32,837 nt of DNA from a bacterium (GTDB lineage: Bacteria; Electryoneota; RPQS01): positions 1-32,837 of the forward strand of contig JAPKYT010000056.1 of NCBI GenBank assembly GCA_026394155.1, in the 5' to 3' direction. Shown here in pieces: positions 24,010 to 25,230 of this stretch; positions within the stretch are counted from its first letter, which is position 1; the number at the start of each line of letters is the position of its first letter. The notes under the pieces are model-generated. The model did no database searches. It was given only the letters and a program-made list of their open reading frames with translations, and was not told where the DNA came from. Position numbers and translations under genes: made by a program.

Positions 24010-24229
24010 GCAGTCGGTCTTGGAGTTCCCTGTTAACGTCTTCGTTGCGGCCGATCCAACAAACAGGAGTCCGCATCTCATCCCAGCAGGATGGCGTCAA
24101 CCGTGCCACGCCACACACTCGCCGTGGCTCAAGCTCATTAGACTCCGGGAGATCGGGCTCAGATAGGCTCTGGCGTTTCCGAACCTTTGGCATTGGATTT
24201 GCTACAGTTAGAAGAAGACGGTTGCAGAT
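24010..24229. other. Gene-free spacer upstream of the candidate small RNA
   Basis: No ORF with family resemblance and no repeat of the types seen elsewhere in the window. It lies upstream of menI on the minus strand and upstream of the small RNA on the plus strand. No convincing menI promoter was found. Confidence 0.45.
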
Positions 24230-24258
24230 TTGACTTTTCGGCCGTGAAGCATTAGATT
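24230..24258 (+). promoter_or_regulatory. Sigma70-like promoter of the candidate small RNA
   Basis: TTGACT (24230-24235), a 17-nt spacer, then TAGATT (24253-24258). A start near A24264 is predicted. The only thing downstream on this strand before the terminator is about 70 nt of non-coding sequence. Confidence 0.65.
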
Positions 24259-24263
24259 GTAAC

Positions 24264-24334
24264 AGTGGCTTTGAAAGGATCGGGGTGTCCCCGGTCGACA
24301 GAGGGTCTTCAGAAATGAAGACTCTCTGTTTTTT
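24264..24334 (+). ncRNA. Candidate small structured RNA adjacent to the DUF3800 gene
   Basis: A transcript of about 70 nt from the promoter at 24230-24258 would contain two hairpins. The first is GATCGGGG-TGT-CCCCGGTC (24278-24296; 8 bp with one G-U). The second is a 14-bp stem, ACAGAGGGTCTTCA / TGAAGACTCTCTGT, closed by a GAAA tetraloop (24298-24329; one G-U) and followed by six T. GNRA-type closure and the T-run fix the plus strand. There is no ORF inside. The T-run overlaps the stop codon of the convergent DUF3800 gene. From memory, a 2017 comparative survey by Weinberg and colleagues described several RNA motifs recurring next to DUF3800 genes; whether this one belongs to them cannot be tested here. 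Structure is clear; transcription and function are inferred. Confidence 0.6.
24298..24334 (+). terminator. Very strong intrinsic terminator
   Basis: A 14-bp stem with a GAAA loop and a TTTTTT tail. No plus-strand protein gene ends nearby (menE ends 720 nt upstream beyond an opposing gene), so it most simply ends the small RNA. Confidence 0.9.
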
Positions 24335-25076
24335 ATGGGAATAGCTTCAGCCCCCAACCCTCAGTCTGACCCTTGGGGGAACAGTAGAGTTTGCCTCTGA
24401 TAATGTCAAAGGGGACGTAGGGCTCTGCGGGGTTGATTACATGACGGGCCAAGGGGTAGGCGCACATATCGGCAAGCTGTAACCCCACGATGTTCTCTTT
24501 CTTGGCGTGAAAGCTCAGTCGCCGGACTCTCGCCTTGAAGTTCCCAGAAGGCACATAGTACGTTCCTTGGTCCAGGATCGAGTTGAAGTGGGCCAGCAAC
24601 TGCCCGTCTTCCCGTTTCCCGCGCTGTTCCACCAGGATCTCCACTGTGCTGGTCTTGTCCGCGGTGTTCAGGTAGAAAATAGTCCTTTCCAGCACAAAGA
24701 GGAGCGACAACGCGTAGGGGTCCCGGGCCCCTTTGCCGTACCTCTTCACGTGCTCCTCTTTGTTCACGCCCGAGCCGATGAGACAGTACTGTCCCTGCCC
24801 GAGGATCCGGTTCAGATCCTTGTAGAATCTTGCCTTCAACTCCAAGTCAAAAAGGATTTGAAATGCGCCCTCGCACTTGCGAATCTCGCGCGAGTGAAGA
24901 ATGACGCCGGTGGTCTTGAAATAGTCGCGTTTGAACTGACTGATGCGAGCTTCAATGTCCCTCAGCGCGTCCTCTCTGATCAGGCAGCCGCACAAGAGAA
25001 AGATTGGGAAGTTCTTGTCTATGAAGGCCAACCCGTGGTCGCCGGTCTCGTCTAAGAAAAAGAAATAGTTTGCCAT
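24333..25076 (-). CDS. DUF3800 domain protein
   Basis: A 247-aa protein. The ORF track extends to 25400, but that part overlaps the neighbouring gene's end; the ATG at 25076 gives the family N-terminus ANYFFFLDETGDHG. The DUF3800 hallmarks are the initial LDETG acidic motif, ILHSREIRK, an acidic LVEQRGKREDGQ segment and the late GLQLADMCAYPLARH motif. The spaced acidic residues suggest an RNase H-like nuclease fold, as proposed for the family, but activity is unproven. Codon use is somewhat AT-richer than the neighbours. It has its own promoter (TTGACA-N17-TACGTT), and its stop codon lies in the T-run of a convergent small RNA. DUF3800 genes are frequent on mobile elements. Family confident; function unknown. 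Confidence 0.88.
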   Translation of the reverse strand: MANYFFFLDETGDHGLAFIDKNFPIFLLCGCLIREDALRDIEARISQFKRDYFKTTGVILHSREIRKCEGAFQILFDLELKARFYKDLNRILGQGQYCLIGSGVNKEEHVKRYGKGARDPYALSLLFVLERTIFYLNTADKTSTVEILVEQRGKREDGQLLAHFNSILDQGTYYVPSGNFKARVRRLSFHAKKENIVGLQLADMCAYPLARHVINPAEPYVPFDIIRGKLYCSPKGQTEGWGLKLFP

Positions 25077-25134
25077 GGGGTGAAATCTGTTTGGCCTTGA
25101 TCTCGGTGATTGGGGCGCAGAGCGGTGTGGAAAC

Positions 25135-25163
25135 AACGTAACGATTTTGGACCCGATTGTCAA
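25135..25163 (-). promoter_or_regulatory. Promoter of the DUF3800 gene
   Basis: On the minus strand, a perfect TTGACA (25163-25158), a 17-nt spacer, then TACGTT (25140-25135), about 60 nt before the ATG at 25076. Confidence 0.6.
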
Positions 25164-25177
25164 CGGCCCCAAACAAA

Positions 25178-25207
25178 CAGGCCGCGGCCCCAAGAAGCCG
25201 CGGCCTG
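25178..25207 (-). terminator. Terminator of the secreted-protein gene
   Basis: An 11-bp GC stem CAGGCCGCGGC / GCCGCGGCCTG with an 8-nt loop. It begins about 24 nt after the stop at 25231 and on the minus strand is followed by tttgtttgg. It separates this transcript from the DUF3800 promoter. Confidence 0.8.
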
Positions 25208-25230
25208 TGCCGTATTCGAACCGGAAGACC

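Follow-up and report, generated by a model that had tools for sequence, protein, structure and literature searches.

To our knowledge, several structured RNAs have been reported beside DUF3800 genes, and we know of a function for none of them. Rfam holds such motifs as DUF3800-I (RF02969), DUF3800-IX (RF02968) and others. For the protein an RNase H fold has previously been proposed, and DUF3800 has been found with Cas12a2 and other class 2 CRISPR systems (PMC10910872; PMC12669027). In a Legionella strain analysed by Tn-seq, a DUF3800 gene of unspecified subfamily is listed, next to antitoxins, among the strain-specific essential genes (PMC7811196). In type III toxin-antitoxin systems such as ToxIN, a ribonuclease-type toxin with the ToxN fold is directly inhibited by a structured RNA made of tandem repeats, encoded upstream of and codirectionally with the toxin gene, and phages mimic this RNA with pseudo-ToxI elements (PMC3475682). 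In type I systems a small hydrophobic toxin is controlled by an antisense RNA. RNA mimicry by phages extends to CRISPR repeats, which are imitated by RNA anti-CRISPRs (Racrs; PMC10651486). A nuclease nested in restriction-modification loci, of type Ic, is the anticodon nuclease PrrC (PMC2610378).

The locus described here lies in a stretch of 32,837 nucleotides (contig JAPKYT010000056.1, phylum Electryoneota), referred to as the window. Like the Rfam motifs it combines a structured RNA with an adjacent DUF3800 gene, its RNA family having about 58 model positions compared with 115 in DUF3800-I, an example of which was sought as a yardstick in 386 genomes and found in none. It shares with ToxIN a ribonuclease-type protein and a structured RNA partner. 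However, the RNA is single, convergent and located at the 3′ end of the gene, the protein has a predicted RNase H fold instead of the ToxN fold, and its inhibition by the RNA is what we infer. A 247-aa predicted enzyme also differs from the small hydrophobic toxin of type I systems.

The putative promoter of the RNA consists of a -35 box TTGACT (24230-24235) and a -10 box TAGATT (24253-24258) with a spacer of 17 nt (Table 1). The RNA, whose 5′ end was placed from the -10 box and whose 3′ end from the T-run, forms two hairpins. In hairpin 1, GATCGGGG (24278-24285) pairs with CCCCGGTC (24289-24296) across a TGT loop, with one U-G pair, while hairpin 2 (24297-24330) has 14-15 pairs and a GAAA loop and runs into T6 (24329-24334). 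This T-run overlaps the DUF3800 stop codon (TTA on the forward strand, 24333-24335); RNA and gene are thus arranged tail to tail and the transcript overlaps the coding region at the stop codon alone. The fold energy of -37.4 kcal/mol, compared with -19.6 +/- 2.9 for shuffled sequences (z=-6.2), was not reached by any of 200 shuffles. This is the layout that an earlier note, made from the sequence alone, had described, i.e., the promoter ahead of an RNA of about 70 nt, the 14-bp GAAA-capped hairpin with six T preceded by a second hairpin, and the two transcripts meeting at the DUF3800 stop. That observation is confirmed in each of these points, and its extent is larger than the note saw.

Table 1. 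Features of the DUF3800 locus; positions are those of the window.
Feature	Position	Strand	Basis
Insert with RNA and DUF3800 gene	24010..25171		Not found at the corresponding place in 9 relatives of the family
Direct repeat AACAAACAGG, near the insert's left edge	24058..24067	+	10-mer search
RNA promoter TTGACT-N17-TAGATT	24230..24258	+	Consensus match; same-place promoters in homologous loci
Small structured RNA, about 70 nt	24265..24334	+	Fold z=-6.2, covariance model match
Core hairpin GGATCGGGGTGTCCCCGGTCG	24277..24297	+	Sequence-conserved part, found alone in phages
Terminator hairpin and T-run	24297..24334	+	12 modelled pairs, all two-sidedly changed among homologues
DUF3800 gene, 247 aa, predicted RNase H-fold nuclease	24333..25076	-	PF12686 E=7.6e-18, alignment, AlphaFold, Foldseek
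Direct repeat AACAAACAGG, insert's right edge, adjoining the neighbour's ancestral terminator	25172..25181	+	10-mer search
Ancestral terminator of P-domain gene	25177..25208	-	Also in most relatives

Consensus scans by themselves are insufficient to identify such an RNA. In a 3.5-kb region the promoter consensus occurs once against 0.9 expected from shuffles and the terminator consensus four times against 3.5, neither being above chance alone. Such counts are what an ordinary terminator of a convergent gene would give if promoter and hairpin had come together by chance, but that explanation is refuted, with next to no probability left to it, because sequence, structure, position and strand are kept across phyla, with covariation. 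Promoter and terminator are credible because the layout is kept in every judgeable homologous locus.

The closest relatives within the phylum and six plasmid loci gave the first sign of the pattern, an antisense RNA whose terminator lies immediately beyond the DUF3800 stop. For the wider comparison, 154 DUF3800 loci (80 genomic and 74 viral) were gathered by protein alignment alone, with the RNA disregarded; they span Proteobacteria, Nitrospinae, Omnitrophota, Planctomycetota, Patescibacteria, Bacteroidota, Actinomycetes and others, at identities of up to 71%. A covariance model of the RNA built from 19 sequences matches 141 of these 154 loci; with few exceptions, the match is on the strand opposite to the gene, 0-30 nt beyond the DUF3800 stop. 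Its match to the window (24274-24333, 75.6 bits, E=6e-17) is not independent evidence, since the window is one of the 19 seed sequences. The RNA was recognized by eye in nine further loci (L115, L123, L125, L130, L145, L147, L173, L191 and L193), and a convergent RNA is present at the 3′ end of the DUF3800 gene in all 150 evaluable loci, a count of mutually related loci and not of independent events. The four loci left out lie at a contig edge (L100, L206, L207) or lack the C-terminus of the gene (L089).

The pairing shows strong covariation. In the alignment of 84 matches, which is fitted to the structure, 96.1% of the cells are paired and two-sided changes affect 14 of the 20 pairs (278 cells); in the MAFFT seed alignment there are already 10 pairs with such changes. 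None of 500 shuffles reaches any of the covariation measures, and structures slid out of register fall far below the real one. The sequence of hairpin 1 is itself conserved, with exchanges, e.g., GATCGTG/CACGATC in L098 and L101 and GGTTGCG/CGCGGCC in Pseudomonas phages; hairpin 2 is kept mostly as structure. Variants of the basic design include two RNA copies in tandem behind one DUF3800 gene (L117:4728-4861) and a further hairpin that enlarges the loop of the core hairpin (L205:4738-4818 and L175). Distances between proteins and those between hairpins are correlated (r=0.45; 0 of 2000 permutations), which is the expectation if both travel together. Moreover, the type of promoter follows the host phylum, an argument that the RNA is really transcribed. 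Of 34 Bacteroidota loci, 27 have the -7 box TAnnTTTG of that phylum no more than 50 nt ahead of the hairpin (1.1 expected), and 13 of 38 loci from elsewhere have the strict sigma-70 pair TTGAY-N17-19-TAnnnT (0.2 expected). The earlier note had proposed a protein-RNA pair, and had stated that hairpins neither conserved nor covarying next to other DUF3800 genes would count against it; the model built from homologous loci, one of the checks it suggested, found the opposite.

The other suggested check, a scan with the Rfam DUF3800 covariance models, gave no match to a DUF3800 family in the window or in 26 DUF3800 loci, also at permissive thresholds, and the RNA therefore falls outside the existing Rfam families. 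A DNA-level search of the phylum matched the window's genome alone because the relatives are too diverged, which is why a covariance model was needed; likewise, a search of genome contigs with a single sequence returned no match, whereas an alignment query succeeded. Of 39 genomes of the host phylum, only the two that have a DUF3800 gene of the window's clade carry the RNA, and the other 37 lack it. At the cut-off used, one copy is found in 43 of 49 genomes, two copies in one genome and no copy in five. Of these five, G001 has no DUF3800 of the window's clade, and the other four (L098, L101, L117 and L131) have divergent, weakly scoring RNAs. A genome's second copy (L209:2191-2244) is surrounded by phage-like genes without DUF3800, the DUF3800-RNA pair of that genome being elsewhere (L072).

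Other DUF3800 clades have other RNAs. In the same phylum two further kinds of convergent promoter-to-terminator RNA occur (L040-L043 and L044-L047, L009), and the inspected RNAs of these loci have no Rfam match. One such locus (L045, contig C9, 16624-17325) is a second, divergent DUF3800 gene of the window's own genome, with an RNA of another kind at its 3′ end. DUF3800 genes of Lactobacillales (L212, L213, L221) have no convergent RNA and are followed by a small gene in the same direction, annotated as a PemK/MazF toxin in L212 and L213.

In the window, RNA and DUF3800 gene are exactly what is carried by an insert of about 1.1 kb with a GC content of about 0.54 compared with 0.61. The gene order menA-menC-menE-thioesterase-P-domain or glycosyltransferase gene is kept, within contig reach, in nine relatives of the same family, in which DUF3800 is absent and the terminator or coding end of the next gene directly follows the thioesterase. 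The window contains the 10-mer AACAAACAGG only at the two edges of the insert, once at each; 1 of 100 shuffles has two copies, and the repeat pair is possibly a target-site duplication. Direct repeats of 10 bp on either side of an insert, together with phage hairpins at very different places (see below), would be expected if DUF3800 were an RNase H-like transposase that moves the hairpin. We consider this very unlikely, as one RNA copy per genome is typical and the window's genome has a single one, no constant ends surround the solo hairpins, and these are mostly in or beside stable RNAs and terminators and not at random sites. No mobility gene is present in the insert. Thus, from the earlier suggestion that the pair might be mobile, horizontal acquisition is supported by the comparison with the nine relatives, while nothing shows self-movement.

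The DUF3800 protein is a predicted RNase H-fold nuclease. Its AlphaFold model (pLDDT 97.3) has RNase H2 and RNase HI as best Foldseek matches in the PDB (E=1.2e-4, probability 1.00), with a TM-score of only 0.4-0.5, and D9, E10, H61, E150 and D203 are invariant in an alignment of 56 homologues. The predicted likeness to the RNase H superfamily includes the N-terminal DE motif and further acidic residues, in line with the acidic motifs that the earlier note had named. PADLOC, PHROGs and NCBIfam gave no name for the window's protein, and a sequence search returned no solved structure. The RNA is intact beside broken DUF3800 genes in L055, L106, L127, L196-L199 and L204, some of whose frameshifts may be assembly errors, and among the judgeable loci there is no intact DUF3800 gene without RNA. 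A broken protein with its RNA is thus tolerated and an intact protein without RNA is unseen, which fits an RNA inhibitor and nearly as well an RNA cofactor. The same broken genes with adjacent intact RNAs, as well as the occurrence of the hairpin alone in phages and in many contexts, make it very unlikely that the roles are reversed and DUF3800 restrains or degrades a harmful RNA, as the strain-specific essentiality of the Legionella gene (PMC7811196) might suggest. Essentiality of that gene is odd for a plain toxin and hard to fit.

Outside the window, the genomic neighbourhood of DUF3800 points to defence. Restriction-modification genes were found by tblastn within 4 kb in 24 of the 80 genomic loci (about 30%) and in 0 of 9 control loci, a rate of roughly 1% being expected as estimated from genome sizes. 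In the closest relative (L054, 71% identical protein) 4 bp separate a type III modification gene from the DUF3800 locus that follows it, the restriction gene comes after, and this Mod-DUF3800/RNA-Res order is common to L054, L059 and L065. L060 adjoins hsdM and L069, from Mesonia hippocampi, adjoins hsdR, and in several loci (L067, L071, L072, L092, L120) restriction-modification genes are located on both sides. Other homologues are found on plasmids and phages, e.g., Pseudomonas phage JBD68. A nuclease gene inside a restriction-modification operon, as in L054, L059, L065 and others, is reminiscent of PrrC, with which homology is not claimed; unlike PrrC, DUF3800 has an RNA partner, and the window's own copy lies outside such an operon, with no restriction-modification gene beside it.

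An additional layer of evidence comes from phages, in which the core hairpin often occurs alone. The pattern GGAYYGNGGTGTCCNCGRTYG, which stands for one allele group, is present in 54 viral stretches, compared with four for the reversed pattern, and 46 of the 54 pair at both free positions, including A-T, T-A and C-G versions. The other eight, with unpaired free positions in GC-rich context, were set aside as likely chance matches. An intact DUF3800 gene is beside the hairpin in only two of the 54 stretches. Alleles differ in this respect: GGACCGGGGATTCCCAGTCGGC occurs alone in nine contigs, two of which have a tRNA-Arg 52 nt downstream, and the Pseudomonas allele GGGTTGCGACTACGCGGCCGG alone in 43, while GGAYTGGGCATTCCCGGTCGGC always has DUF3800 adjacent. 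Correspondence between phage and host alleles was judged roughly, for Pseudomonas and, by phage similarity, for Acinetobacter. A model in which the RNA acts solely as antisense was dropped, since the sequence of the core hairpin is kept across phyla and the hairpin also occurs away from the gene.

According to their flanks, the solo hairpins represent 58 distinct contexts (tRNA-like D-loops, tRNA arrays, terminators, and sites near tmRNA), in 14 of which a tRNA or tmRNA on the same strand lies within 300 nt (3.3 expected). The exact 21-nt core hairpin of the window also occurs in phage tRNA-like genes (L226, L254, L266). In L268 the unconstrained fold is a cloverleaf with the hairpin in the D-loop, and the joined flanks are recognized as a tRNA by ARAGORN; a D-arm of the tRNA-Leu type houses the hairpin in L226, L254, L266, L238 and L256, the last two within tRNA clusters with tmRNA. 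As ARAGORN recognizes a tRNA in only three contigs after the flanks are joined, the D-loop claim depends mainly on L268, L266 and the Leu-type D-arms. The cluster of L238 (803-1384) combines the hairpin-bearing tRNA-Leu-like gene with GOLLD RNA and tmRNA. In L326, L345 and L353 the hairpin is about 20 nt ahead of a tmRNA-like gene, and further solo hairpins are located in terminators or 3′ ends. In 47 named Pseudomonas phages, including PMG1, PAJU2, YA3, Haboob and Marin, the hairpin belongs to a stretch of about 96 nt (L316:880-975) that is present whole or in part, and some copies are in tRNA arrays. The flanks of this stretch differ among the phages, and the stretch itself is often unannotated.

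Phages thus carry the RNA element on its own, without the DUF3800 protein, as with phage RNA mimics of the Racr or pseudo-ToxI type. Racrs, likewise, are solitary phage copies of the RNA element of a defence system, with the difference that they mimic a CRISPR repeat, while the element described here is a DUF3800-linked hairpin, often within tRNA-like genes, tRNA arrays and terminators. Together with the restriction-modification neighbours, the solo hairpins strengthen the idea, raised in the earlier note, of a defence-related or toxin-antitoxin-like system. A solo hairpin would be useless to a phage unless a host factor reads it, and DUF3800 is a candidate for this reader; we know of no other.

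The following mechanism is proposed, in which we infer binding, direction of control, toxicity, trigger and substrate. RNA and DUF3800 gene would constitute a horizontally acquired two-part module, in which an RNase H-fold nuclease and a matching small RNA are transcribed convergently, the latter from its own promoter and up to its own terminator. The protein would recognize the core hairpin and thereby be kept inactive, so that the pair would behave like a toxin with its RNA antitoxin. In other hosts, where the pair resides in restriction-modification operons, prophages and plasmids, it might serve in anti-phage or inter-element defence, with the nuclease being freed upon infection (e.g., by host transcription shut-off or loss of the linked restriction system). 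Phages could counter by producing the core hairpin alone within stable RNAs as a decoy. To this reading as a whole, a defence nuclease checked by a hairpin RNA with phage hairpins as decoys, we assign a probability of about 0.52. The main rival, serious though rather unlikely, is a ribonucleoprotein effector in which the DUF3800 nuclease needs the RNA as cofactor or scaffold and the phage hairpins, binding the protein on their own, would jam it as Racrs jam Cas proteins. Such an effector fits the constant co-occurrence of RNA and protein, the many phage copies that keep the core hairpin alone without the terminator of the module, the presence of DUF3800 domains in CRISPR loci (PMC10910872; PMC12669027) and the precedent of solitary repeat mimics that act on Cas proteins (PMC10651486). 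Conversely, no variable guide-like segment is evident in the RNA, and its own promoter is as for an inhibitor made in excess.

In all, DUF3800 is probably part of a widespread defence module in which an RNase H-fold nuclease is under the control of a short convergent hairpin RNA, and which phages counter with the hairpin in stable RNAs, including the D-loops of tRNA-like genes. The puzzle of the DUF3800 RNAs now has a defined RNA family, a protein partner, a defence setting and a phage counterpart, and the open question of their function thereby becomes directly testable. If the decoy reading is true, the solo hairpins would represent another class of phage counter-defence RNA mimicry after pseudo-ToxI and Racrs, and part of the tRNA arrays of phages would have a new role as carriers of decoy hairpins. 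Phages would then possess natural tRNA-scaffolded RNA decoys.
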